Assembly (NCBI RefSeq): GCF_000622385.1 | Contig: NZ_JASD01000007.1 | Location: forward strand, 1 to 30,021 | Origin: Sulfitobacter noctilucicola | Lineage (GTDB): Bacteria > Pseudomonadota > Alphaproteobacteria > Rhodobacterales > Rhodobacteraceae | DNA length: 30,021 nt | Direction of reading: 5' to 3' | Shown here: positions 9,472-29,340 of the stretch, in pieces | How positions within the stretch are numbered: the first letter of the stretch is position 1 | Layout of the letters: every line of letters begins with the position of its first letter | The notes under the pieces: model-generated | Database searches by the model: none | What the model saw: only the letters and a program-made list of their open reading frames with translations | Told to the model about the DNA's origin: nothing | Program-made: the position numbers and the translations under genes

Positions 9472-12400
9472 TTAATCCCGGCTTTCCTCATCGAAGGAGG
9501 GTGTCGTGAAAACATCACCGCCAACGACGTCATCCGTTGGCACAGGTGCCGCCAGAGCCGCCGCCGCTTCCGCTTCTTCGCGGCGCGCTTCGATGACCAC
9601 GTTGTCACGGTCCGATGCAACTTTGCGCATTTGCATTGTCGCACCACCGGTGCCCGCAGGGATCAAACGACCCACGATCACGTTCTCTTTCAGACCGACC
9701 AGTTTGTCGCGCTTACCTTGTACGGACGCCTCTGTCAGAACACGTGTCGTTTCCTGGAACGACGCAGCAGAGATGAACGAACGAGTCTGCAAGGACGCTT
9801 TGGTGATGCCCAACAGGATCGGCTCGCCCTTGGCCAAACGGCCACCTTTCGACGCTGCCTTCTCGTTGGCCAGATCGAACTCTTGCTTATCGACGTGTTC
9901 GCCTTTCAGAAGCGTGGTGTCACCGGATTCCTGGATTTCCCACTTCTGCAACATCTGACGCACGATTACTTCGATATGCTTGTCGTTGATCTTAACACCC
10001 TGCAAACGGTAAACGTCCTGCACTTCGTCGATCATGTAGTCAGCCAAGGCCTCGACACCCATAATCGCAAGAATGTCATGCGGCGCCGGGTTGCCGTCCA
10101 TGATGTAGTCACCCTTCTGGACAAAATCACCTTCCGCAACCGGAATGTGCTTGCCCTTGGGCACCATGTACTCGACCTTGTGATCCGGATCATCCGAGGA
10201 CTCAATCGCGATGCGGCGCTTGTTTTTGTAGTCCTTGCCAAAGCGGACATAGCCGTCGATCTCTGCAATGATCGCGTGGTCTTTGGGGCGACGTGCCTCA
10301 AAGAGTTCCGCAACCCGTGGCAGACCACCGGTAATGTCCTTGGTCTTGGCACCTTCACGCGGGATACGCGCGATGATGTCACCAGCTTTGATTTCCGTCT
10401 GATCTTCGACCGAAAGAATGGCATCCACCGACATCGGATAGGTTACAGGGTTGCCCGCGTCGTTGCGCAGCGGCTCGCCATCTTCGCCTACCAGAATAAT
10501 TTCCGGCTTCAACTCATTACCTTTAGGTGCCGCACGCCAGTCGATCACGATCTTCTGGGTCATACCTGTCGCATCATCGGTCTCGTCCTTAACCGCGATC
10601 CCGGACACAAGGTCCACGAACTTGGTCATACCGGACTTCTCGGCGATGATCGGCAGCGTATAGGGATCCCATTCGAACAGCTTGTCGCCGCGCGCAACGG
10701 TATCACCGTCCTTGACGAACAGCGTGGTACCATAACCGATCTTGTGGTTGGCCCGCTCTGCACCGTCTTCACCAACGATAAGCATCTTCATGTTCCGGCC
10801 CATCACCATGATCCCGCCATCGGCGTTTTCAAGGGTCATGGCGTTTTCAAACACGATTTTGCCTTCCTGCGACGCTTCGAGGAAGGATTGCTGGCCACCT
10901 TGGGCAACGCCGCCGATGTGGAATGTCCGCATCGTCAACTGTGTGCCCGGCTCACCAATGGACTGCGCCGCGATGATACCCACCGCTTCGCCTTGGTTTA
11001 CCAGCGTACCACGTGCAAGGTCACGACCGTAGCACATCGCGCAGACGCCTTCTTCGGCCTCACATGTCAAAGGAGAACGGATGCGTGTGGACTGCACCGC
11101 CGCCTCGTCGATGAGATCAGCCAGACGTTCGTCAATGATCGTACCTGCTGTCGCGATGACTTCATCCGTGCCCGGCACGGTGATGTCGTCCGCGATAACA
11201 CGACCCAGCAGACGCTCCGCCAGTGAGGAAACAACCTCACCATCGTTCACCGCTGCTTCTGCGGTGATCGCCATGTCAGTGCCACAGTCATGCATACGAA
11301 CGATGCAATCCTGCGCCACGTCTACTAGACGACGTGTCAGATAACCGGAGTTCGCAGTCTTCAAAGCCGTATCCGACAGACCCTTACGGGCACCGTGGGT
11401 GGAGTTAAAGTACTCAAGAACGGTCAAACCTTCCTTAAAGTTCGAGATAATCGGTGTCTCGATGATGTCGCCGTTCGGCTTGGCCATCAGACCGCGCATC
11501 CCGCCCAGCTGTTTCATCTGCGTGACCGAGCCACGCGCACCGGAGTGGGCCATCATGTAAACCGAGTTCGGTTCCATTTCGGCACCATTCTCATCGCGAC
11601 GCTCAGCAGAGATCGAGCCCATCATCGCATCGGTGACTTTGTCGTTACACTTCGACCAGGCATCAACAACTTTGTTGTACTTTTCGCCCTGAGTTATCAG
11701 GCCGTCCATGTACTGTTGTTCAAAGTCCTTAACCTGCTCGCGCGTCTCTTCGACAAGTGGCCACTTGCTATCAGGGATCAGCATGTCGTCTTTACCAAAC
11801 GAAATACCGGCCTTGAACGCTTCGCGGAAACCCATGGTCATGATCTGGTCACAGAAGATAACGGATTCTTTCTGACCACAGTAGCGGTAGACCGTATCGA
11901 TTACCTGCTGCACTTCTTTCTTACGCAGCAAGCGGTTGACCAGATCGAATGGTGCTTTTGCATTCAGCGGCAGCATCGCACCCAGACGGACACGGCCGGG
12001 CGTGGTGTCAAAGCGCACCAGCACTTCGTTGCCTTCGTTGTCGATCTGCTTGATCCGCGCCTTGATTTTGGTGTGCAGGTGTACCTCACCGGCGTCGAGT
12101 GCGTGCTGCACTTCGTCGACGGTGCCGAATACTTTGCCTTCGCCCTTCATACCTTCACGCTCAAGCGTGGTGTAATACAGGCCCAAAATCATATCCTGTG
12201 AAGGAACAATGATCGGTGCGCCGTTTGCAGGCGACAGAACGTTGTTCGTGGACATCATCAGAACGCGCGCTTCAAGCTGTGCTTCAAGCGACAGCGGCAC
12301 GTGAACCGCCATCTGGTCACCGTCAAAGTCCGCGTTAAAGGCGGAACAAACCAGCGGGTGCAGCTGGATCGCTTTACCTTCGATCAGAACCGGCTCAAAC

Positions 12401-13716
12401 GCCTGAATGCCGAGACGGTGCAGCGTCGGCGCACGGTTCAGCATGACAGGATGCTCGCGGATAACTTCATCGAGGATGTCCCAAACCTCGGGACGTTCTT
12501 TTTCGACAAGCTTCTTGGCTTGCTTCACTGTGGAAGACAGGCCTTTGGCTTCAAGCCGGCTGTAGATGAACGGCTTGAACAGCTCGAGCGCCATCTTTTT
12601 CGGCAAACCACATTGATGCAGCTTGAGTTCTGGACCCGTCACAATGACCGAACGGCCAGAGAAGTCGACGCGCTTACCCAAAAGGTTTTGACGGAAGCGA
12701 CCCTGCTTACCCTTCAGCATGTCGGACAGTGATTTCAGCGGACGCTTGTTGGCACCCGTAATCACACGGCCACGACGGCCATTGTCGAACAGCGCATCCA
12801 CAGATTCCTGCAACATCCGCTTTTCGTTACGCACGATGATATCGGGCGCACGCAGTTCGATCAGACGCTTCAGACGGTTGTTACGGTTGATCACCCGGCG
12901 ATACAGATCGTTCAGGTCAGACGTCGCAAAGCGACCGCCATCCAGTGGCACCAATGGGCGCAGTTCTGGCGGGATCACGGGGATCACTGTCAGAACCATC
13001 CACTCGGGGCGGTTGCCGGATTCAAGGAAGCTTTCAACCACCTTCAGGCGCTTGATGATCTTCTTGGGCTTCAATTCGCCTGTGGCTTCTTTCAGCTCTT
13101 CGCGCAGTTGGTCGGCCTCTGCTTCAAGGTCGATCGCGGCAAGCATTTCGCGGATCGCTTCAGCACCGATGTTGGCGGTGAACGCGTCCATGCCGTAAGC
13201 ATCCTGCGCGTCCATATACTCTTCCTCGGTCATCATCTGACCGTAGGTGAGGTCCGTCAGACCGGGTTCGATCACCACGTAGTTCTCGAAATACAGTACC
13301 CGCTCCAGATCGCGCAGTGTCATGTCGAGCATGAGACCGATCCGGGACGGCAGTGATTTCAGAAACCAGATGTGTGCCACAGGCGAGGCCAGCTCGATGT
13401 GGCCCATACGCTCGCGGCGAACCTTTTGCAGCGTGACTTCGACACCACATTTTTCGCAGACAACGCCGCGATATTTCATGCGCTTATATTTGCCGCACAG
13501 ACATTCATAGTCTTTGATCGGGCCAAAGATACGCGCGCAGAACAGGCCGTCACGCTCGGGCTTGAACGTCCGGTAGTTGATGGTTTCTGGCTTCTTGATC
13601 TCACCGAACGACCACGACAGGATACGCTCTGGCGAGGCAAGGGAAACCTTGATCTCGTCGAACGTCTTCATCGGAGCGACGGGGTTGAACGGGTTGTTTG
13701 TCAGTTCCTGGTTCAT
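9472..13716 (-). CDS. rpoC: DNA-directed RNA polymerase subunit beta'
   Basis: Beta' forms the catalytic clamp of RNA polymerase with beta. The 1414-residue product is complete. The N-terminal zinc finger CLCGKYKR...VVCEKCG is near residues 70-90. The active-site loop NADFDGDQ starts at residue 461, with Asp463, Asp465 and Asp467 as Mg2+ ligands. The second zinc site ([19 protein letters not shown]) and the trigger-loop region ([10 protein letters not shown]) follow. The frame is open from a TTG two codons upstream, but ATG 13714-13716 is preferred: AAGGA is spaced 7 nt from it and the canonical start [12 protein letters not shown] follows. It is co-transcribed with rpoB across a 96-bp gap containing two hairpins. 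Confidence 0.99.
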
Positions 13717-13756
13717 TTTCAATTCCTTGAATTGGGAGCGTTAGGCAAATGTCGAG

Positions 13757-13806
13757 GATCGTTTTCTTTCAAAGAAAACGGTCGGGAAGTTTGAAACTTC
13801 CCGATC
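13757..13806. repeat. Paired palindromic element, rpoB/rpoC junction
   Basis: Two near-perfect hairpins lie side by side: CGTTTTCTT-TCA-AAGAAAACG at 13760-13780 and CGGGAAGTT-TGA-AACTTCCCG at 13783-13803. The outer GATCG (13757-13761) and CGATC (13802-13806) also pair. The sequence differs from the GGTGGAGC-type elements, but the design of two tandem ~20-nt hairpins with 3-nt loops is the same. There is no U-run on the minus strand, so read-through from rpoB to rpoC is expected; it may be an RNA processing or pausing site. Confidence 0.75.
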
Positions 13807-13812
13807 TTTCCC

Positions 13813-16800
13813 TCACTCATCTTCCTCCGCATCCAGGAGTTCCATATTCAGGCCGAGGCCGCGGACTTCTTTCACGAGAACGTTAAAGCTCTCTGGAATG
13901 CCCGCTTCGAAGTTGTCCTCGCCCTTGACGATGCTTTCATAGACCTTCGTCCGGCCAGCCACGTCATCCGATTTCACAGTCAACATTTCCTGCAGGGTGT
14001 AGGCGGCACCGTAAGCTTCAAGTGCCCAGACCTCCATCTCACCGAAACGCTGCCCGCCGAACTGAGCCTTACCACCCAGCGGCTGCTGTGTGACGAGGGA
14101 GTACGGACCGGTTGAACGCGCGTGGATTTTGTCGTCCACCAAGTGGTGCAGTTTCAGCAGGTACTTGACGCCAACGGTCACAGGACGCGCAAATTGCTCG
14201 CCCGTACGACCATCAAACAGCACCGACTGACCGGAAGAGTTGAACCCGGCACGCACAAGCGCGTCGTTCACATCAGCTTCCTTGGCACCGTCGAAAACAG
14301 GTGTCGCAATTGGCACACCGCGGGTGACATTGCCTGCCGCTTCCAAAAGCGTGTCTTCGTCCATGCCTTCAAGGCCTTCGGAATACACGTCTTCGCCGTA
14401 GGCGATGCTCATCGCTTCGCGTACTGGTGTCAGATCGCCAGAGCGTTTGTACTCTTGCAGCGCCTCATCGACATTCAGACCCAGACCGCGTGCGGCCCAA
14501 CCCATGTGTGTCTCAAGAATCTGGCCGACGTTCATACGCGATGGAACACCAAGCGGGTTCAGACAGAAATCAACCGGCGTACCGTCTGCAAGGAAAGGCA
14601 TGTCTTCCATTGGTACAACCTTGGAAATAACACCTTTGTTGCCGTGACGGCCGGCCATCTTGTCGCCCGGTTGCAGCTTGCGCTTCACCGCCACGAACAC
14701 CTTGACCATCTTCATCACACCCGGAGGCAGATCATCACCACGGCGCACTTTTTCGACTTTGTCGTCGAAACGTGCATCCAAGGTCCGCTTCTGGATCTCG
14801 TACTGCTCGTTCAACGCCTCGACGATTTTCGCGTCGTCTTCGTCTTCAAGTGCCAACTGCCACCACTGACCACGGGTCAGGACGTTGTCCAGCATATCCT
14901 CGGTGATCTGGCTGTTGGGAGAGACGCCTTTCGGGCCTTTCACAGCAACCTTGCCAAGGATCATATCGCGCAGACGTGCAAAGATGTTCCGGTCCAGAAT
15001 GGCCATCTCATCATCACGGTCACGTGCCAGACGTTCGACTTCTTCACGCTCGATCTGCAGCGCACGTTCGTCTTTTTCCACACCATGGCGGTTAAAGACG
15101 CGCACTTCGACGACTGTGCCAAAATCACCCGGCTTCACCCGAAGGGATGTATCACGCACGTCAGACGCTTTCTCACCAAAGATGGCGCGGAGGAGCTTCT
15201 CTTCCGGCGTCATCGGGCTTTCGCCCTTCGGTGTGATCTTGCCCACAAGGATATCGCCCGGCTCAACGTCCGCACCGATATATACGATGCCCGCCTCGTC
15301 GAGGTTGCGCAGCGCTTCTTCACCGACGTTCGGAATATCGCGTGTGATTTCCTCAGGCCCAAGCTTTGTGTCACGTGCAGCGACTTCGAATTCCTCGATG
15401 TGGATCGAGGTGAAGACGTCATCACGGGAAACCCGCTCGGAGATCAGGATGGAGTCTTCGTAGTTGTAACCGTTCCAAGGCATGAACGCGACAACCACGT
15501 TTTTACCAAGCGCCAATTCACCCATATCTGTGGACGGACCATCGGCAATAACCTGACCCTTTGTTACCGTCTCACCCACTTTGACCAGCGGACGCTGGTT
15601 GATGCAGGTGTTCTGGTTGGAACGCTGGAACTTGCGCATGCGGTAGATGTCTACGCCTGCATCGCCCAGCTCAAGGTCTTCGGTCGCGCGGATAACGATA
15701 CGTGACGCATCCACCTGATCGATCACACCCGCACGGCGTGCCATATAGGCCGCACCGGAATCGCGTGCCACGACCTCTTCGATACCTGTGCCGACCAGCG
15801 GGGCTTCCGCTTGCAGCAATGGCACCGCCTGACGTTGCATGTTGGAACCCATCAAAGCGCGGTTCGCGTCATCGTTCTCAAGGAACGGGATGAGCGAGGC
15901 CGCAACAGAGACCAACTGCTTGGGTGATACGTCAATCAAATCAACGCTTTCGGTAGGTGCGAGCGTATAATCACCGGAGCGGCGTGTGTTTACCATCTCG
16001 TTTGTGAACTTGCCGTTCACATCGAGAGACGCGTTCGCCTGCGCCACAGTGTGACGCATTTCCTCGGTCGCGGACATATAGTGCACTTCGTCTGTGACGG
16101 TGCTGTCCTTAACCACACGGTAAGGCGTTTCGATAAAGCCGTATTTGTTCACACGAGCGAACGTCGCCAGCGAGTTGATCAGACCAATGTTCGGACCTTC
16201 CGGCGTTTCAATCGGACACATCCGGCCATAGTGGGTCGGGTGAACGTCACGTACTTCGAAACCGGCACGCTCACGTGTCAGACCGCCAGGCCCAAGCGCT
16301 GAAAGGCGACGCTTGTGCGTGACCTCGGACAGCGGGTTGGTTTGGTCCATGAACTGCGACAGCTGCGAAGAGCCAAAGAATTCACGTACCGCAGCAGCGG
16401 CTGGTTTCGCGTTAATCAGGTCTTGCGGCATGACTGTGTCGATTTCGACAGAAGACATACGCTCCTTGATCGCGCGCTCCATGCGCAGCAGGCCAACGCG
16501 GTACTGGTTTTCCATCAGCTCGCCAACGGAACGCACACGACGGTTACCAAGGTGGTCGATGTCGTCGATGTCACCACGGCCATCACGCAGATCAACCAGT
16601 GCTTTGATACACGCAACGATATCTTCGCGGCGCAGGGTGCGCACGGTATCTTCTGCATCCAGATCCAGACGCATGTTCATCTTCACACGACCAACAGCCG
16701 ACAGATCATAACGCTCTGAATCAAAGAACAACGTGTCAAACAGCGCGGACGCGGCTTCAACGGTGGGCGGCTCGCCCGGACGCATGACGCGGTAGATGTC

Positions 16801-17952
16801 CATGAGCGCGGTGTCGCGGTTCATGTTCTTGTCGTTCGCCATGGTGTTACGCATGTAAGGACCGACATTGACGTTATCGATGTCCAGAAGCGGGATCTCG
16901 GTGATGCCTGCATCGACCAGTTCTTTGGCCGTGCCGCCGATCAGATCGCCGTCCTTGTCGTACTCCAGCGTCAACTCGTCACCAGCTTCGACATAGATCG
17001 CGCCGGTTTCTTCGTTGATGATGTCCTTGGCGACAAATTTGCCCTGAATGTGGTCGAACGGCAAAAGAAGCTCTTTCACTTCACCTTCGTCAATCAGCTT
17101 TTTAACAGCGCGAGGCGTGACTTTCTTGCCTGCTTCGAACAGCACTTCACCGGATTTGGCATCGACCACATCGTAGGTCGGGCGCGTGCCCCGCACGCGG
17201 TCCGGGAAGAACGGTGCAACCCAGCCCTTTTTGGCTTTCAGCGTGTACGTCACGGTGTTGTAGTACGCATCCATGATGCCTTCCTGATCCAGACCCAGTG
17301 CATAAAGCAGGGTTGTCACAGGCAGTTTGCGGCGACGGTCGATGCGCGCAAAGACGATGTCTTTGGCGTCGAATTCGAAGTCGAGCCACGAGCCGCGGTA
17401 TGGGATGATGCGGCAGGCAAACAGCAGTTTACCGGAGGAGTGGGTCTTGCCCTTGTCGTGGTCAAAGAACACACCAGGTGAGCGGTGCATCTGGGACACG
17501 ATCACACGCTCGGTTCCGTTCACGATGAACGTACCGTTCGGCGTCATCAGGGGCATATCGCCCATGAATACGTCTTGCTCTTTGATGTCTTTGACAGACT
17601 TCGCACCTGTGTCTTCATCGATTTCGAATACGATCAGACGCAGTGTTACCTTAAGCGGCGCGGAGTATGTCATGTCGCGCTGCTGACATTCCTCAACGTC
17701 GTACTTGGGCTTTTCAAGCTCGTACTTCACGTACTCGAGGATGGATGTCTCGTTAAAATCTTTGATCGGAAAGACCGACTGGAAAACACCCTGGATGCCA
17801 TCACCATCGGTGGGCGTCTCGGCATCGCCGGAATTCAGGAACAGGTCGTAGGATGATTTTTGAACCTCAATCAGGTTCGGCATGTCCAGCACTTCGCGGA
17901 TTTTGCCATAATATTTACGCAGACGCTTCTGGCCAAGGAAGGATTGTGCCAT
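13813..17952 (-). CDS. rpoB: DNA-directed RNA polymerase subunit beta
   Basis: Beta forms the catalytic pincer and rifampicin pocket of RNA polymerase. The 1379-residue protein is full length for alphaproteobacteria. The rifampicin region reads [17 protein letters not shown] then [13 protein letters not shown], with Asp536 and the His and Ser of the pocket in their sensitive forms. Further downstream are [14 protein letters not shown], the [15 protein letters not shown] segment and the conserved C-terminal [24 protein letters not shown] stretch (shortened here to key residues [14 protein letters not shown]). The frame is open 34 codons upstream, but ATG 17950-17952 gives the canonical [15 protein letters not shown] start, with AAAGG upstream. 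It follows rplL after 285 bp. Confidence 0.98.
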
Positions 17953-18135
17953 GTGTCGTAATACCTTTCGTATCTCTTGCCTGAACGCCGCCACCGGGGC
18001 CGTGGCGCGTCCATCAGAGCGGATTAGTCCGGTCAATGCTGGATTGCGTCCCACCGCAACCCTTCCGACCTTTGGACCTCTCCAGAAGGGGGCTTTCTTA
18101 CGGTTTTAACCAAAAGCACCCTTCAAGACAGGTTT

Positions 18136-19558: not shown

Positions 19559-21451
19559 CTATATATGACAAGGCGAATTTGACGCAGCTGCGCGATCATA
19601 AACCATATCAAACCAGGTCTTCGCCCTTTTTGCGAGGATCTCTCGCGGGACAAGGCTGCGCACCTTTTCACGTTCCAGACCGAGATGTGCCGATACATTG
19701 ATCCGCGCTTGATAATAAGTTTTGCTCTCTCGTCCGCGCACCGCACGTTCGGTGTCTCGCAACCCTTCTAGAACGGGCCGCGCCGCAGGACCGATATCGC
19801 AAATGCCAAGCAAACTCTGGATCGCTAATTTGACATTATCTTCCGCCAGACCGGCATTCACCAGATTGGCCAATGCCGGTGCAGCGGACGGTCCGCCAAG
19901 ATGGAGCTTGCGTAGAAGACGCGCCGCCGGACCCCGCTTTTCGCGCACGGTCGTCAAGTATTGCAAAAGGTCCAGATGATCGCGCAATACGTTATCAGGC
20001 AAGTAAGACATCGCTGCCGCCGCTCTTGCGAAATCCTTGCCGGTGCTGTTGTGAACCCGGAGGCGTCTGGCAAGTCCTTGGGCAATCACATCGCCCCGCA
20101 CAAGTTCGACGGCGCTATTGTATCTCACGAATAATTCGAAATTAGACGGCAATTTCATATGAGGAGACGCCGCTACACGTCGGGCGATCTCTGCATCGCG
20201 CAGATCAGGATGCTGCTTGGTACTGTTGCCACCATTGGGCGAAATATTCAGCCCTTTCCAATACTGGGAAAAGACCCGCCATTCTTCTTTGGTCGGACTG
20301 CGGTCCGCCTCCAAAAGTGCAATGATGTTATCTTGAGCTGCTTTGCGGTAAGCACCATCATCCAAAGCCAACGACAACCCCAAAACATCCTCAATCTTGT
20401 CGAAAACACCCCATTTGGATTGTTCGGAATAATCCTTATCGTTGAACCTAAATTCGGTCTTTACCCAGCCCGAAGGCTCATCCAGCACAAAACTTGGCAT
20501 TGGCATCAGAAATGGCGCGAATTTTTGGCCTGTACCGGACGTTGCGCGAAACACCTCTTCAAAGTCGCCGGAAGCGTCAGGCACATACATCTCAAGACGC
20601 GCGGCCTGTATACCGCTGAGGCCGAAATCAAACCCCAGTTGATGTTTGCGCTGCTTTTCCTGAAAAACCGGACCCAACACAATAATCAGATCAGCGTCAG
20701 AGACAGGTGCTTCATGCGCAATGAGGCAATGTCCGGATGCAACCATCTGGGTGGCGATTTCCGCAGCATTGCGCGATGAACTGGGTGTCTGTCCCGCAGG
20801 CCCGTGGGGCAGCCAGTAGTGTTTCGGATTGAGTTTAACATCGGGACAGGATGCGCGTTGTTCAAACGAGTAGGCCATGCCAATCGAATCCGGATCTGGC
20901 ACGGTCATCCCAACCGGCACCGGTTTTACAACTACCGTTGAGGCTACACCGCTCAGCAAAACGTGCAAACATAAACGATCACAGCTTTCTGTGGTACTTT
21001 TCATGCGGTTCACAACAGCGACCGTTTGGACATTCAGTGGCAAGTCCAGACTGTTGTGATCATCCGCAGTCAATGCGATCTGTTTTTGGTAGCCCGATGC
21101 GTTCATCCACTGCGCCGGAAGAAACAACAGCAAGGCAGTACCAGCGTAAGCCGCAAATTTCAGCGGTCCGCCCGTCAATGGCAAAATCATGCGGAACATC
21201 ACGATGCAGGCCCATGCCAGCACAAGGGTCGGTAGAAAGAACATAACGGGCAGCAGCGGAATACCGATCCCGCTGAACAACAGCAGGTAATGAAGCCCGG
21301 GCATCAGCAGAAAGATGAAACTCAGCACGGCCGAGAACATTAAAACCTTCAAGCCGCGCGGTGTATCCAGCCCCATCGTGAACAGCTTGCTGAAAGCCAT
21401 CCCAAGGCCAAACGCCCTCATCGCGCTCCGACGATTTCCAAAAGTAGCCAT
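19559..21451 (-). CDS. Unrecognised membrane protein between rplA and rplJ
   Basis: I do not recognise this protein of about 630 residues. The N-terminal ~120 residues hold about four hydrophobic helices (for example VLMFSAVLSFIFLLMPG, LLFSGIGIPLLPVMFFL, LVLAWACIVMFRMILPL). A long soluble part follows with several Cys residues (CDRLCLHVLL, ASCPDV, SGHCLIAH). The C-terminal ~150 residues look alpha-helical with an armadillo/HEAT-like feel (AAPALANLVNAGLAEDNVKL, then GPAARPVLEGL). The start is uncertain: ATGs at 21487, 21451 and 21421 are in frame and none has a clear Shine-Dalgarno sequence. It lies behind the rplA terminator and ahead of its own terminator-like hairpin, so it is an independent unit interrupting the ribosomal operon. 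No function is proposed. Confidence 0.8.
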   Translation of the reverse strand: MATFGNRRSAMRAFGLGMAFSKLFTMGLDTPRGLKVLMFSAVLSFIFLLMPGLHYLLLFSGIGIPLLPVMFFLPTLVLAWACIVMFRMILPLTGGPLKFAAYAGTALLLFLPAQWMNASGYQKQIALTADDHNSLDLPLNVQTVAVVNRMKSTTESCDRLCLHVLLSGVASTVVVKPVPVGMTVPDPDSIGMAYSFEQRASCPDVKLNPKHYWLPHGPAGQTPSSSRNAAEIATQMVASGHCLIAHEAPVSDADLIIVLGPVFQEKQRKHQLGFDFGLSGIQAARLEMYVPDASGDFEEVFRATSGTGQKFAPFLMPMPSFVLDEPSGWVKTEFRFNDKDYSEQSKWGVFDKIEDVLGLSLALDDGAYRKAAQDNIIALLEADRSPTKEEWRVFSQYWKGLNISPNGGNSTKQHPDLRDAEIARRVAASPHMKLPSNFELFVRYNSAVELVRGDVIAQGLARRLRVHNSTGKDFARAAAAMSYLPDNVLRDHLDLLQYLTTVREKRGPAARLLRKLHLGGPSAAPALANLVNAGLAEDNVKLAIQSLLGICDIGPAARPVLEGLRDTERAVRGRESKTYYQARINVSAHLGLEREKVRSLVPREILAKRAKTWFDMVYDRAAASNSPCHI

Positions 21452-21592
21452 GTGCGGTCTCACTCGAATTCCGTTCTTCCAGTGCATGGTTGCAATGAAA
21501 AGATGGCAAACCTCTGGCGGGATTCGTGCCTTTCAAGGCCAGATCACCCGCATCTGATCGTAGAATTGGATAGCAAGCCCAGACCGGAACGC

Positions 21593-22348: not shown

Positions 22349-22774
22349 TTACTTCACCTCGATGCCCATGGACCGGGCAGAACCCAGAATGATTTTCATC
22401 GCCTGCTCAACATCGTTGGCGGACAGATCGACCATCTTCGCTTCTGCGATTTCACGCAGCTGCTTGGCCGTCACTGTGCCGACGGTTTCGCGGGATGGCG
22501 TTTTTGCACCAGAGTTAATCTTGGCCGCTTTTTTCAGGTAGTAAGACGCAGGTGGCGTCTTGATGTCCATGTTAAAGGACTTGTCCTGATAGTAGCTGAT
22601 CACGGTCGGGCAAGGTGCACCGGGCTCCATGTCCGCTGTTTTGGCGTTGAATGCCTTACAGAATTCCATGATGTTGATGCCGCGCTGACCCAATGCTGGA
22701 CCTACGGGCGGGGACGGGTTGGCTTGCCCCGCTTTAATCTGCAACTTCATCGTACCGACGAGTTTCTTGGCCAT
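22349..22774 (-). CDS. rplK: 50S ribosomal protein L11
   Basis: L11 sits at the GTPase-associated centre of 23S rRNA and is needed for factor-dependent GTP hydrolysis and the stringent response via RelA. The product is 141 residues, opening [20 protein letters not shown] with the typical [18 protein letters not shown] segment and the C-terminal rRNA-binding domain ([26 protein letters not shown]). The frame is open 51 codons upstream but that stretch is basic and unlike L11; ATG 22772-22774 has AGGAGAAGG just upstream. nusG, normally adjacent, is about 2.9 kb away here. Confidence 0.99.
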
Positions 22775-22900
22775 TGGCCTTCTCCTTTTCAACGCTCTCG
22801 GGTCGCGACCTTCGAGCCATGTGTTGCGTGGTCTGGTCTGCATGCCGCGGCACGCGCGCCTCCCACGGTGGTGAATCGCCTTTGCGGGCGATTGGTGCGG

Positions 22901-22927
22901 GGTATAGGTGAGTTGAGGGTTTTGCAA
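22901..22927 (-). promoter_or_regulatory. Candidate rplK promoter
   Basis: On the minus strand TTGCAA and TATACC are separated by 15 bp, shorter than the optimal 17, so the match is only partial. A separate promoter is expected because the exporter operon and the antiporter lie between nusG and rplK. A 7-bp hairpin (AATCGCC/GGCGATT, 22874-22893) lies in the leader just downstream. Confidence 0.35.
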
Positions 22928-23041
22928 GGGTTTCGAGTGGATCAGGACTGAATGTCTGCTTCGAGCCCATACCTACCCACTTGCTGCATTGCCGCGAATG
23001 ACCGGTTCAACATCAACGGGCGGAAGATAGGCCCCGAGCAA

Positions 23042-23674
23042 TCAATCCGCATGCCCATGGGATAACATCGCTTCGATTACCGTGGCCCGATTCTGAACCG
23101 CACCAGTTTGCAGATACTCCATCGCTTTCAACGCCGCCTCATGAGCCTCTACAGACGATCCGCCCACGCAATCCTCAACGACACGGCAGAAATAGTCGGA
23201 CTGATGCCCATCCACGAACGTGTAGTGAACACAAACATCTGTCAGACCACCGCACAGGAGCAGCGTGTCGACCTTCTGGCCGCGCAATAGAATCTCAAGA
23301 TCAGTTCCGAAGAACGCAGAATAGCGCCGCTTTGGGATGATGTAGTCGCCTTTGCGAAATCCCATTTCCTCTTTGGCGACTTCCGTACGCGGATCGCCCT
23401 CAAGGCAATGGACGTCCTCATCGCCGTCCAATTCCCGACCGAAGTCGATCAGATCCGGACGATGGACTTCTTGGATGAAGATGACGGGGATATCTTTCTC
23501 ATGCGCAGCATCGACCAGATCGCGCGCAGCGATCATGCGATCCTTGTAACCCGGCATGTTGTCGATGGAACGCACCTCGCTGTTGTCGATAAAAGTGCTT
23601 TTCTGAATGTCGATTACGATGAGCGCGGGTCGCCCTTCGATCAGGTTTCTCGCTGTTTTGGTTCTTGTCGTCAT
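23042..23674 (-). CDS. Isochorismatase-family cysteine hydrolase, riboswitch-linked
   Basis: This 210-residue cytoplasmic hydrolase belongs to the isochorismatase/nicotinamidase-like superfamily, which cleaves C-N bonds of amides and ureas through a cysteine. The triad is visible as Asp22 (VIDIQ), Lys115 (IIPKRRYSAF) and Cys148 (GGLTDVCVHYT). Around residues 69-76 EVHRPDLID resembles the HRPDL segment I recall from biuret hydrolases of this family. The start ATG at 23674 follows AAGGA with 8-nt spacing. It lies 18 bp downstream of the guanidinium exporter and presumably shares its guanidine-II riboswitch. A role in breaking down a guanidine- or urea-derived amide (such as biuret or carboxyguanidine products) is a hypothesis; nicotinamidase-like or other amidase activity is possible. 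Confidence 0.85.
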   Translation of the reverse strand: MTTRTKTARNLIEGRPALIVIDIQKSTFIDNSEVRSIDNMPGYKDRMIAARDLVDAAHEKDIPVIFIQEVHRPDLIDFGRELDGDEDVHCLEGDPRTEVAKEEMGFRKGDYIIPKRRYSAFFGTDLEILLRGQKVDTLLLCGGLTDVCVHYTFVDGHQSDYFCRVVEDCVGGSSVEAHEAALKAMEYLQTGAVQNRATVIEAMLSHGHAD

Positions 23675-23692
23675 TGTTCGTGTCCTTTCGTC

Positions 23693-24010
23693 TTAATGCG
23701 CATCTGAGCCGAGCAGAAACATTCCGAAAACCAGAAGTGTCAAACCCGCCACGTTGGCTGTGCTGAGATTTTGATTAAAGGCAATCACGCCGACCAGCAC
23801 CGATCCGACAGAACCGATACCTGTCCAGATCGGATAGGCGATACCAAGCGGCAGTCGGGTCATCGCAGCGTAAAGAGCAACGAGGCTCGTGATCATCGCG
23901 ATGAGCGTCAGAGCGCCAAGTGTCCAAGAGAAAGCAATGCCAAGCTTTTTGAGCCCCGTCGCCCAAACGACTTCCAGTGCACCTGCGATGATAAGAAAAA
24001 TCCAAGCCAT
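23693..24010 (-). CDS. gdx: Guanidinium exporter, SMR family (Gdx/SugE)
   Basis: Gdx proteins are dual-topology small multidrug-resistance family dimers that export guanidinium in exchange for protons. The 105-residue product has four transmembrane helices. Residues typical of the guanidinium-selective subtype are present: Glu13 and Trp16 in LEVVWATGLK, Ser42, and Tyr59 and Trp62 in GIAYPIWTGIGSVGS. The open frame extends 32 codons upstream, but that extension crosses the riboswitch; ATG 24008-24010 has a GGAGG Shine-Dalgarno sequence about 6 nt away and gives the normal MAWIFLIIAGALEVVWA start. The guanidine-II riboswitch 19 nt upstream supports guanidinium as substrate. Older annotations call this sugE or quaternary-ammonium resistance. 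Confidence 0.93.
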   Translation of the reverse strand: MAWIFLIIAGALEVVWATGLKKLGIAFSWTLGALTLIAMITSLVALYAAMTRLPLGIAYPIWTGIGSVGSVLVGVIAFNQNLSTANVAGLTLLVFGMFLLGSDAH

Positions 24011-24028
24011 CTTGACCTCCACTTTTCG

Positions 24029-24073
24029 CAGGTCGTCCTGACTATTGCCCTGTCGTGGCCGGGTCGTCCCGGC
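24029..24073 (-). ncRNA. Guanidine-II riboswitch (mini-ykkC)
   Basis: On the minus strand two hairpins each carry the diagnostic ACGA tetraloop: GCCGGG-ACGA-CCCGGC (complement of 24058-24073) and CAGG-ACGA-CCTG (complement of 24029-24040), joined by a 17-nt linker. The second hairpin ends 8 nt before the GGAGG ribosome-binding site of gdx (24016-24020). Two ACGR-capped stems upstream of an SMR exporter are the defining signature of the mini-ykkC class, in which each loop binds guanidinium and ligand binding frees the ribosome-binding site. It is expected to switch on the gdx-hydrolase operon when guanidine accumulates. Confidence 0.93.
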
Positions 24074-24087
24074 AGGCTCCGAAGTAT

Positions 24088-24116
24088 CGGGTAAACGTGG
24101 GATCACGAATTGTCAA
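24088..24116 (-). promoter_or_regulatory. Candidate promoter of the guanidine operon
   Basis: On the minus strand a perfect TTGACA (-35, complement of 24111-24116) is followed after 17 bp by TACCCG, a poor -10 box. The implied start near 24081 lies just upstream of the first riboswitch hairpin, which fits the short mini-ykkC layout. The rest of 24117-24366 holds no gene that I can support. Confidence 0.45.
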
Positions 24117-24366
24117 TTTTTCAGTCGACAAATAGAAATGTGGAGGCGGACCTTCTGTCGTTGAGTGTGAAGGTCGGCTCCGTCCTGCATAGCGAACCTC
24201 TGTAACGCTTCCAGACGTGCTCAAGTAGATGCACACGCGGCGAATGACGGCAACGAGCCCAAACTGTCGGATGCTGCGCTGCGCATAAAGGTCCGCTTCG
24301 GTTCTTGTAGAAGAAATTTTGATGCACATTTTCCGTTCGTAACTCAGTAGAAAGAACCTTCCCAAA

Positions 24367-25320
24367 ATGAGCGCGACACTTCTTGTCTTTGTGGGTCTCT
24401 TCGGCCTGATCGTTGGCGGCGAATTGCTTGTGCGTGGCGCGGTGTCGTCCGCGAAGTCGTTTGGCATCTCACCTATGGTCATCGGTATCACTCTGGTAGG
24501 ATTTGGCACCTCGTCTCCGGAGTTGGTAACGAGCTTGCAAGCTGCACTATCGGGGTCTTCTGGAATTGCAGTCGGAAACGTCGTCGGCAGCAATATTGGA
24601 AACGTGCTGCTGATCCTTGGCATTGCCGCCTTGATTGCGCCAATTGCAGTTGACCCGAAAGCGTTTCGGCGGGACGGAACCGTCGTCGTCCTAGCAACCC
24701 TCCTTTGCCTCGGAGCTGTTCTTTGGGGAGAAGTTGGCCGGTTAATCGGTGCCGCTCTGGTACTCGCCCTGGCCGCATATCTGGGGTTCACGCTCTGGAC
24801 TGAAAAACACAGCGGCGGGACACCTGCGGCGGCTGTCTACGAGAGTGAAGCCGAGACCGTACTGGGTCCTGAGACGCCGCTGGCCGTGTCCTTGATCCTC
24901 GCGCTGGCAGGGTTGGTGATAACCATTATAGGGGCACGGTTCCTGGTCTCAGGCGCGGTGACCATCGCTCAGGCTGCAGGACTGTCGGAAGCAGTGATCG
25001 GTCTGACAATCGTAGCAATCGGGACATCTATGCCTGAACTTGTGACCTCGATCATTGCGGTTCGGAAAGGTGAAGGCTCTGTGGCGCTCGGCAATGTGCT
25101 GGGCAGCAACATCTTCAACATACTCGGCATCCTAGGCATCACTGTTCTTGTCCAACCCATGCAAATACCGAATGAGATTATCCGCCTCGATATCTGGGTG
25201 CTGTGCGCGACCACGGTCTTGCTCGTTGTTTTCGCCCGCAGTGATTGGACCATCTCTCGACGTGAAGGCGGTCTATTTGTCTTAGCTTATGCCACTTACC
25301 TAGCTGTGCTTCTGATCTGA
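24367..25320 (+). CDS. Calcium/sodium antiporter (CaCA family, YrbG-like)
   Basis: The 317-residue inner-membrane protein has about ten transmembrane helices and two inverted alpha repeats typical of cation/Ca2+ exchangers: GFGTSSPELVTSLQAA then GNVVGSNIGNVLLILG in the first half, and AIGTSMPELVTSIIAV then GNVLGSNIFNILGILG in the second. The Glu/Asn/Ser ion-coordinating residues of both repeats are intact. It would exchange Ca2+ against Na+ or H+. The start ATG at 24367 has only a weak upstream purine stretch. The gene is divergent from the guanidine operon and lies in the block separating nusG from rplK; no functional link to either is evident. Confidence 0.93.
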   Translation: MSATLLVFVGLFGLIVGGELLVRGAVSSAKSFGISPMVIGITLVGFGTSSPELVTSLQAALSGSSGIAVGNVVGSNIGNVLLILGIAALIAPIAVDPKAFRRDGTVVVLATLLCLGAVLWGEVGRLIGAALVLALAAYLGFTLWTEKHSGGTPAAAVYESEAETVLGPETPLAVSLILALAGLVITIIGARFLVSGAVTIAQAAGLSEAVIGLTIVAIGTSMPELVTSIIAVRKGEGSVALGNVLGSNIFNILGILGITVLVQPMQIPNEIIRLDIWVLCATTVLLVVFARSDWTISRREGGLFVLAYATYLAVLLI

Positions 25321-25645
25321 CACTAGGTTGTTGAGAGGCGTTGAACAAAAGCGGTCGTTGGACCAGCTCTGGCAGACGGCAGCTTCGTCCCGCACAGCGG
25401 ACAATGGACTGCCCCCACTTGCGATCGAGCAAGATAGCCGCCGGGCAGTGCCGGTCCTCTGCGGCTCACAAACCGCTGATGGGGTGACCGCTGGCGCTTT
25501 GGTGACGGTATACGTGAGGTTGATGGTTTGGGATGTGCTTGGATCCCAGAGGCTCCAAACTGGTAAGGCGGCAAGCGGCACCGCAAAGTGTGCCACTGCC
25601 CGCCTGATCAGAAGCGCGTAAGGTGGGCATAGCCCGCCCCAGACA
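25321..25645. other. Gene-free spacer between antiporter and nusG
   Basis: This 325-bp stretch lies between the convergent antiporter and nusG genes. It has no open frame with family resemblance or a good ribosome-binding site; a 98-codon minus-strand frame crossing it looks like chance. It resembles decayed Roseobacter intergenic repeat sequence. At 25618-25640 it contains CGTAAGGTGGGC followed by GCCCGCC, half of the paired palindromic element seen at 901-956, and this hairpin (25622-25638) sits 8 bp past the nusG stop. Confidence 0.5.
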
Positions 25646-28366: not shown

Positions 28367-29050
28367 TCAGAAAGGACCAACAGCAGCACGCGCCAAGGCA
28401 CCCACATCCCCGCCGCATATCTCAGCCTCGTGGGCGAGAATTTTTTCAATAGGCCAGTCCCACCAAGCAGTTTGCAAAAGCTGCTGTACGTCTTCCGGCG
28501 TGAACCTTACGCGCCGAACCTGTCCGGGATTACCCGCCACAATCGAATACGAAGGCACCGTTCCAGACACCACCGCCCCCGCACCGACAATGACCCCATG
28601 GCCGAGTTGCGCACCGGGCATGATACGCGCGCCCTGCCCTATCCAGCAGTCGTTCCCGATCACCGTGTCCTTCGCTTGGCTCCCATCCGGCATCGAGGGC
28701 CGCCCCGCCATTTCACCTCCGCCAAATATCGCAAATGGAAACGAGGAGATACCGTCATACCGGTGGTTCGCCGATGACGTAATGAACGTGACCCCATCAG
28801 CAATCTGGCAGAACTTACCGATACGTAACTTTTCAGGGCTGGCGGGATAGAGATACGGCGCAAGGTGCGCGGCCCAATCGTCGGGCGGCGTATGGGCACT
28901 GGCGTAGCTGTACGCCCCCGCTTCGATCCGCGGATGATCTATTGCTGCGGCAAGAAAGACCGAACCGGCGTGGACCGTGCCATCGGCAAGCTTGATGGGA
29001 TGCTTTTCGGTAGGTTCGGCAAAAACAGGAGTATCGGGCATCTTGGGCAT
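28367..29050 (-). CDS. CatB-like O-acetyltransferase (hexapeptide repeat)
   Basis: The 227-residue protein has the left-handed beta-helix fold of hexapeptide-repeat acyltransferases (LRIGKFCQIADGVTFIT; GNDCWIGQGARIMPGAQLG; VIVGAGAVVSG). It shows the CatB/Vat xenobiotic acetyltransferase signature NHRYDGISSFPFAIFG, with the catalytic His in NHR. Such enzymes use acetyl-CoA to O-acetylate chloramphenicol, streptogramins or sugars; the natural substrate here is unknown and resistance should not be assumed. The frame is open 91 codons upstream; ATG 29048-29050 is chosen for its GAGGAG Shine-Dalgarno sequence. It lies downstream of the tuf terminator in the same direction. Confidence 0.88.
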   Translation of the reverse strand: MPKMPDTPVFAEPTEKHPIKLADGTVHAGSVFLAAAIDHPRIEAGAYSYASAHTPPDDWAAHLAPYLYPASPEKLRIGKFCQIADGVTFITSSANHRYDGISSFPFAIFGGGEMAGRPSMPDGSQAKDTVIGNDCWIGQGARIMPGAQLGHGVIVGAGAVVSGTVPSYSIVAGNPGQVRRVRFTPEDVQQLLQTAWWDWPIEKILAHEAEICGGDVGALARAAVGPF

Positions 29051-29200
29051 GGCTGGCTCCTCGCTAGGATAGTCATACCGCATCACAGGATGGACGAAAC
29101 GTCCACCTCCCTCCTGTGCCCCTCTCCGGCATTTATGAAGAGGTATCGCGCGTGGCGGCGACGCACCGGCGGTGACAAGCTGCGCGGGATGCGCAAACGT

Positions 29201-29231
29201 AAAAGGCCGCCCCGGTGTGGAGCGGCCTTTT
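29201..29231 (-). terminator. Intrinsic terminator after tuf copy B
   Basis: AAAAGGCCGC and GCGGCCTTTT form a perfect 10-bp stem with an 11-nt loop. Both strands end in TTTT, so it could work in either direction. It lies 110 bp beyond the tuf stop, leaving a long 3' untranslated region. Confidence 0.85.
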
Positions 29232-29316
29232 GTATTTCTTGAGCAACCGAGCCGACACCTTGCTCTCGTGATCTTTTCCTCAAGGGGAAAAGACACTGCC
29301 ACAAGGCGTCGCACCG

Positions 29317-29340
29317 GCAACAACGCCGATGTGTTGTTGC
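29317..29340 (-). other. Hairpin abutting the tuf copy B stop codon
   Basis: GCAACAAC (29317-29324) pairs with GTTGTTGC (29333-29340) around an 8-nt loop, directly adjoining the tuf stop codon. A second hairpin, TCTTTTCC/GGAAAAGA, lies at 29272-29293. Neither has a U-run. They may protect or process the 3' end of the mRNA; that is inference. Confidence 0.5.

Follow-up and report, generated by a model that had tools for sequence, protein, structure and literature searches.

A guanidine-II riboswitch, a Gdx-type SMR gene and an isochorismatase-like hydrolase gene lying side by side in Sulfitobacter noctilucicola

Organization of the locus

The window, i.e., the whole stretch of 30,021 nucleotides of Sulfitobacter noctilucicola DNA analyzed here, harbors on its minus strand a guanidine-II riboswitch, a gene for a Gdx-type transporter of the SMR family, and a gene for an isochorismatase-like cysteine hydrolase (hereafter IHL). 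The features considered are the following:

24058-24073, minus strand: guanidine-II hairpin P1, GCCGGG-ACGA-CCCGGC (RF01068 match and sequence)
24041-24057, minus strand: linker between P1 and P2, 17 nt (sequence)
24029-24040, minus strand: guanidine-II hairpin P2, CAGG-ACGA-CCTG (RF01068 match, sequence, and predicted folds)
24034-24030, minus strand: predicted anti-Shine-Dalgarno GACCU, inside P2 (predicted folds)
24014-24020, minus strand: Shine-Dalgarno region GGAGGUC, paired to GACCU in the OFF state of the predicted folds
23693-24010, minus strand: gdx-type SMR gene, 105 aa (PF00893, similarity to Gdx-Clo, residues)
23042-23674, minus strand: IHL gene, 210 aa, presumed co-transcribed (PF00857, catalytic triad)
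24367-25320, plus strand: calcium/sodium antiporter gene, in the nusG-rplK interval
26179-25646, minus strand: nusG, flanking the unit
22927-22349, minus strand: ORF of rplK (TIGR01632 match)
22867-25620, no strand: segment with the antiporter gene, riboswitch, gdx, and IHL, absent from congener G055, which has 24 bases instead (blastn and tblastn against L164)

The first-pass annotation had placed the riboswitch and the SMR gene in the nusG-rplK interval, and the two flanking genes confirm this position; the interval also holds the antiporter and IHL genes. In congener G055, about 150 bases separate nusG (92%) from rplK (94%). Since the antiporter gene and the guanidine unit are absent from between them, these were likely inserted in the lineage of the window; the length of the interval does vary, with nusG and rplK separated by about 110-135 bases in G004 and G186 and by 982 in G007. 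In G134 and G025, the 1.5-kb flank showed no rplK. There is no indication that the location is of functional importance. In G259 a riboswitch-SMR-IHL unit (L215:5346-6365) lies upstream of an L2-Alphaproteobacteria leader, among neighbors which, judging by their starts, we take to be ribosomal-protein genes.

Some other features of the window are worth recording. An ORF of 642 aa without a Pfam or NCBIfam match lies between rplA and rplJ (19559-21487, minus strand), and a Rhodo-rpoB RNA (RF03074, 50.8 bits; 17983-18071, minus strand) lies just 5' of rpoB. A hexapeptide acetyltransferase gene, Vat/CatB-like and below the NCBIfam cut-offs, sits between the tuf gene end and tRNA-Trp (28367-29323, minus strand). 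The tRNA-SeC called by ARAGORN at 13734-13811 (plus strand), between ORFs 9472-13722 and 13813-18054 (rpoC and rpoB, by position), is probably spurious; Rfam reports none there.

The guanidine-II riboswitch and its predicted fold

A cmscan of the window against Rfam 15 yielded three matches above the cut-off: tRNA, Rhodo-rpoB, and Guanidine-II. The last one (RF01068, 24075-24028, minus strand) scored 36.3 bits against a gathering threshold of 32, with an E-value of 6e-4 against all 4227 Rfam families; it ends 17 nt before the SMR gene and is the sole RF01068 match in its own 4.09-Mb genome (E 2e-5). At 24075-24008 (minus strand) the letters are those that had been read by eye, namely two ACGA-capped hairpins joined by a 17-nt linker, with 8 nt between P2 and GGAGG (24020-24016); the ATG of the SMR gene is at 24010. 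The earlier assignment to the mini-ykkC (guanidine-II) class thus withstands the covariance-model search, and the two ACGR-loop hairpins just 5' of a coding sequence, which characterize the class, are present. The guanidine-II riboswitch and gdx/sugE of E. coli likewise combine two ACGA-loop hairpins with a downstream Gdx-type SMR gene, as a predicted translational ON switch, but the window unit has a hydrolase gene after gdx. In itself, the pairing of riboswitch and Gdx is a further member of an already known kind.

In the predicted minimum-free-energy fold of the leader, P1 is kept and P2 is opened, its GACCU pairing with AGGUC of the Shine-Dalgarno region. This Shine-Dalgarno-paired state lies at -22.6 kcal/mol, versus -16.0 kcal/mol when both hairpins are formed and the Shine-Dalgarno is left unpaired, and the mean predicted unpaired probability of GGAGG is 0.22. 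The stability of the leader exceeds that of shuffled sequences only modestly (z -1.27; 19 of 200 shuffles as good). GGTC, the complement of GACC, was found in the spacer of 17 out of 20 IHL-linked leaders; GGTC/GGTT is rarer before SMR (16/35), PACE (9/26), and UAAP1 genes (3/13), sets that share some members with the IHL-linked group. A predicted unliganded leader that hides its Shine-Dalgarno fits, without proving it, a translational ON switch, the mechanism given for the guanidine-II class (PMC12186494).

An outer stem (GCCY 5' of P1 with GGGC in the linker) appears in one fold, and its sequence recurs in the IHL-linked group; it was dropped because swapped linkers scored equally in 724 of 1000 trials, so that covariation support is absent. 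Searching positions 22700-24400 for promoters and terminators gave 0 and 1, respectively, not above shuffles.

The SMR gene product

The SMR protein matches PF00893 with 76.4 bits (cut-off 23.7), which places it in the SMR fold family. Its nearest solved structure is Gdx-Clo, a guanidinium/H+ antiporter (E about 1e-16), EmrE following at 2.7e-4 or weaker. Glu13, Trp16, Ser42, Tyr59, and Trp62, to which the first-pass annotation had drawn attention, are all found and align with the same residues of Gdx-Clo. W62, S42, and W16 stabilize E13, Y59 is invariant across SMRs, and W16 is conserved in Gdx, with Gly or Ala in the Qac subtype (PMC7695847); SMRs are also the subject of PMC10149990. The window protein differs from Gdx-Clo as a member of a divergent subgroup, with 73.9 of the 126 bits required by NF008512, the NCBIfam SugE equivalog, which is NCBI's name model and not a definition of Gdx. 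It is best regarded as a putative guanidinium exporter.

The IHL-linked SMRs read AYP at Y59-P60, instead of the AYT, AYM, or AYV of the guanidine-II and gdx/sugE class; in six other aligned riboswitch-linked SMRs the reading is AYT, AYV, AYM, or SYM. The AYP proteins are those of the window, L069-L074, L076, L078, L080, L082, L085, L007, L033, and L215, and also L020. On their sequences they would form a Gdx subgroup apart from the others, whose substrate range may differ. An SMR of this subtype is also riboswitch-controlled in genome G025, which has no IHL at E <= 1e-60. The other SMR of the window's own genome (L066) carries a YAIWSGLG stretch, presumably Qac-like, and R1 (see below) finds no aptamer at its locus.

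The isochorismatase-like hydrolase

The reading of the locus as a riboswitch with its Gdx exporter is supported by the covariance match, by Gdx-Clo as the nearest structure, and by Trp16; it was incomplete, in that the second gene (23674-23042), coding for the putative amidohydrolase, had been missed. This gene starts 18 nt past the SMR stop, and its product matches PF00857 with 149 bits. All 28 aligned rows have D22, K115, and C148, residues that align with Asp36, Lys142, and Cys175, the triad of the biuret hydrolase BiuH (PMC5806882). Moreover, Q189 occupies the position of Gln215, with which BiuH binds the distal amide of its substrate, and Y118 that of Lys145, which is needed in BiuH (PMC5806882). 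IHL therefore has the Asp/Lys/Cys triad and the distal-amide Gln in common with BiuH and differs in the replacement of Lys145 by Tyr118. This replacement, together with the NCBIfam cut-off (70.3 of 370 bits on the BiuH model NF050097), led us to reject biuret hydrolase as its identity.

For the guanylurea hydrolase of Pseudomonas mendocina MET we took UZZ13643.1, a cysteine hydrolase encoded beside a deaminase gene in CP098607; it is also isochorismatase-like and, like IHL, has Tyr at the BiuH Lys145 position. This one characterized sequence differs from IHL, to which it is 30% identical, in having Glu at the Gln189 position. No guanidine-II match was retrieved from the 50-kb MET stretch (L148). 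Since both the Lys145 of BiuH and the Glu of the MET enzyme are absent, the IHL pocket would be neither of the biuret type nor exactly of the guanylurea type. From its sequence we assign IHL as a putative guanidino/ureido amidohydrolase resembling biuret and guanylurea hydrolases.

A nucleoside-deaminase-type gene follows a riboswitch-controlled Gdx gene in one Ruegeria (L150:1645-2148, minus strand), and another adjoins the MET guanylurea hydrolase gene (L148:20151-20636).

Distribution of riboswitch-linked hydrolase genes

One search for IHL homologs retrieved 6135 at E <= 1e-3. At E <= 1e-60, IHL is present in 20 of the 198 sampled genomes of the family; in these 20 loci, the window included, a riboswitch was found in four by Rfam and in five by R1, a covariance model that we built from 29 aptamers of the lineage. 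The scan of species genomes gave at least 534 IHL relatives, from which the best 80 were kept. R1 detected an aptamer near IHL in 21 of these 80 loci; they hold the IHLs most similar to that of the window, and 21/80 is not a rate for the whole family. The following arrangements were observed:

i. Riboswitch-SMR-IHL, in 11 of the 80 loci (L069-L074, L076, L078, L080, L082, and L085). With G134, G004, and G259, this arrangement is known from 14 genomes other than that of the window (G186 and L082 are one genome).

ii. Riboswitch directly 5' of IHL, without SMR, in seven loci, five from Ruegeria (L075, L077, L081, L083, and L086) and two from Roseibium (L091 and L094).

iii. Riboswitch and SMR remnant, in Labrenzia THAF82 (L089), the weakest match (E 0.006).

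iv. Riboswitch-PACE-IHL, in an uncultured bacterium of the Rhizobiaceae group (L113:5468-6609), PACE replacing SMR.

v. Riboswitch-SMR divergent from IHL, in one locus (L124).

In the 40 genomes of L068-L107, 13 out of 22 RF01068 matches pass the Rfam cut-off. The Ruegeria sites L075, L077, and L086 are below it, as is the G259 site; L081, L083, and L094 are above.

R1 found no aptamer near IHL in the remaining 59 of the best 80 loci, and for this reason the wider IHL family is not tied to guanidine. The genes beside riboswitch-free IHLs (aldolase, DUF1611, enolase-like, aminotransferase IV, FGGY kinase, FAD enzymes, and ABC transporter) give no common clue to a substrate. A Yoonia plasmid IHL, 82% identical, has no aptamer. 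The same is true for a 62% identical IHL on a Sulfitobacter pontiacus plasmid (NZ_CP049346, L248:616-5567), which neighbors ABC importer genes, a DMT transporter, and an ornithine cyclodeaminase gene; these neighbors might hint at the kind of substrate handled by the wider IHL family.

In a tree of 83 IHLs, whose bootstrap is not settled, one clade of 27 rows (98/87) includes 13 of the 14 riboswitch-SMR-IHL rows, all seven riboswitch-IHL rows, and the SMR-remnant row, along with six aptamer-free rows (L068, L079, L084, L087, L088, and L090). The sequence upstream of the L068 IHL looks like an insertion-sequence end. The riboswitch-IHL arrangement requires two changes on this tree; L113 and L124 fall in its other half, and L034 (G004) lies outside the 27-row clade. 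The row nearest to the window IHL is that of Marivita geojedonensis (95% over 197 columns).

Exporter and enzyme under the same sensor

An RF01068 match (E <= 0.001) was found in 16 of the 40 genomes of L068-L107. Among the genomes with a riboswitch-IHL locus, a second match lies elsewhere in all five of Ruegeria and in one of the two of Roseibium. Labrenzia THAF82, with its SMR remnant, also has another one; all these seven other sites lie 14-20 nt 5' of an SMR gene. In each of the nine riboswitch-SMR-IHL genomes where RF01068 matched at all, the match is single. Applied to this partition (7/0 vs. 0/9), Fisher's test gave p 9e-5, a value that ignores kinship and leaves out G200, G204, and G221, which have no match at this threshold. 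When these three are counted, a riboswitch-linked SMR is present in 18 of the 19 genomes with a riboswitch-linked IHL, 11 times within the unit and seven times elsewhere, the exception being G221; seven of the eight genomes whose unit lacks a whole SMR have a separate SMR behind another riboswitch. Whether joined in one unit or split over two, exporter and enzyme both remain under the sensor. This is our main reason for placing IHL in guanidine metabolism: judging from these gene arrangements, it most likely belongs to the guanidine regulon. Genome G025, with its riboswitch-controlled SMR of the AYP subtype and no IHL at E <= 1e-60, counts against this placement.

PACE and UAAP1 genes behind the riboswitch

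In the 198 genomes of the family, RF01068 gave 39 matches in 37 genomes. According to profiles built from members of the same set, the first gene after the match codes for a PACE ("chlorhexidine efflux") transporter in 23 cases (L003, L004, L006, L008, L009, L012-L016, L018, L019, L021, L022, L024, L026, L028, L029, L194-L197, and L199), SMR in 12, and UAAP1-like in two. The remaining two matches look spurious: that at L030 reads as coding sequence, and that at L198, whose second loop is broken, precedes an EF-Tu-like start. All five PACE proteins scanned (four of the 23 of the family and that of L113) are above the cut-offs of PF05232 and NF033664. PF05232 occurs in 46 of the 198 family genomes; R1 found an aptamer at 24 of the best 30 of these loci and none at six, one of which gives a weak match with filters off. 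Five plasmid records (L249-L253), taken from 182 matching ones, all have an R1 aptamer before the PACE gene; those of Marinovum algicola, Pseudosulfitobacter pseudonitzschiae, Labrenzia, and Roseibium pass the Rfam cut-off, and that of Microvirga does not.

None of the 198 family genomes has both PACE and SMR under a detected riboswitch, as expected if PACE replaces Gdx. On this genomic evidence, riboswitch-linked PACE transporters are candidate guanidinium exporters.

The 41 further sites found in 385 genomes of the class precede SMR (23), UAAP1 (11), PACE (4), other genes (2), and one gene scored as IHL, which on inspection is SMR then IHL (L212). UAAP1 (urea amidolyase-associated) genes stand directly behind the riboswitch also in L002:684-1484 and L005:1565-2362. 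The guanidine carboxylase/carboxyguanidine deiminase units (guanidine-I/-II) are likewise riboswitch-controlled nitrogen enzymes, of a family different from that of IHL, and none of their genes is present in the window unit.

Possible roles of the unit

We consider it rather probable that the riboswitch of the window acts as a translational ON switch and controls two genes of a guanidine unit. What we observe is the match of the RNA, its predicted folds, the order of the genes, and the repeated linkage of riboswitch and IHL, with or without an adjoining Gdx; from these we infer that the ligand is bound, that it is transported, that the two genes are co-transcribed and, to the greatest extent, what the substrate of IHL is. 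In the absence of guanidine, GACCU of P2 would pair with the Shine-Dalgarno GGAGGUC, and the exporter would be poorly translated. Guanidinium bound by both ACGA loops would make the loops dock, whereupon P2 would close and release the Shine-Dalgarno. Guanidinium would then be swapped out for protons by Gdx, and IHL, made from the same message, would act on a related compound; its likeliest reaction would split a terminal carbamoyl amide off a guanidino/ureido compound (guanylurea-like) to give ammonia, and whatever guanidinium is left over would be exported.

A more specific version makes IHL a guanylurea hydrolase (guanylurea to guanidine, ammonia, and CO2), whose product guanidine would induce the unit and leave through Gdx. 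The known guanylurea hydrolases are isochorismatase-like and the Gdx of Aminobacter moves guanylurea (PMC9800807), and the MET enzyme has Tyr where BiuH has Lys145; on the other hand, this single characterized enzyme is 30% identical to IHL and has Glu at the position of Gln189. We hold this version only tentatively, although guanylurea would still be the single likeliest substrate.

Alternatively, the unit might be an ordinary riboswitch-Gdx detoxification unit in which IHL is a passenger unrelated to guanidine. That 59 of the best 80 out of at least 534 relatives are without an aptamer, and that related IHLs adjoin varied metabolic genes, would agree with this idea. It is nonetheless unlikely, because in seven loci from two separate branches the riboswitch stands directly 5' of IHL with no SMR between them; also, L113 has a PACE gene where the SMR would stand.

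Less likely still is a cysteine guanidinase acting on guanidine or an alkylguanidine (guanidine to urea and ammonia) and feeding nitrogen assimilation. The IHL genes directly behind the riboswitch in Ruegeria and Roseibium speak for it, but the known relatives cut amides and not amidines (BiuH, PMC5806882), and Gln189 is an amide-binding position. Finally, either the aptamer or the Gdx assignment could be mistaken, the former being degenerate or due to chance and the SMR being of the Qac type. The low SugE score (73.9 of 126) and the nine of 22 related matches below the Rfam cut-off might point to this, but it is hardly credible given a window match above the cut-off, the presence of Trp16, and the riboswitch-SMR-IHL order in 14 other genomes.

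Our preferred reading of the window, an ON switch for exporter and hydrolase, leads to a broader proposition, which we hold with about even confidence: the guanidine regulon of Rhodobacterales and their relatives would include an uncredited IHL amidohydrolase, accompanied by Gdx or under its own guanidine-II riboswitch, and PACE guanidinium exporters substituting for Gdx.

Significance

The links of the hydrolase and of PACE to guanidine-II provisionally look new: in the open-access papers searched we found none joining guanidine-II or guanidine riboswitches with an isochorismatase-like or biuret hydrolase or with Ruegeria, nor one joining guanidine-II with PACE or chlorhexidine efflux. A review treats export by Gdx and degradation by a carboxylase or a guanidinase, and describes the natural sources of guanidine in bacteria as a major gap; neither isochorismatase nor biuret appears in its main text (PMC12186494).

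According to a 2018 review, the physiological substrates of PACE pumps were yet to be described (PMC6195760). Our reading of the riboswitch-linked PACE genes, if true, would give part of this family a natural substrate. Short-chain diamines are said, in a later report, to be substrates of AceI. Chlorhexidine is a bisbiguanide, which makes guanidinium a directly testable candidate for a natural PACE substrate.

As for the hydrolase, its gene follows a guanidine sensor in several arrangements, some of them lacking the exporter; this provides a concrete enzyme to assay, and an IHL controlled in this way may represent a new branch in the guanidine metabolism of marine bacteria.
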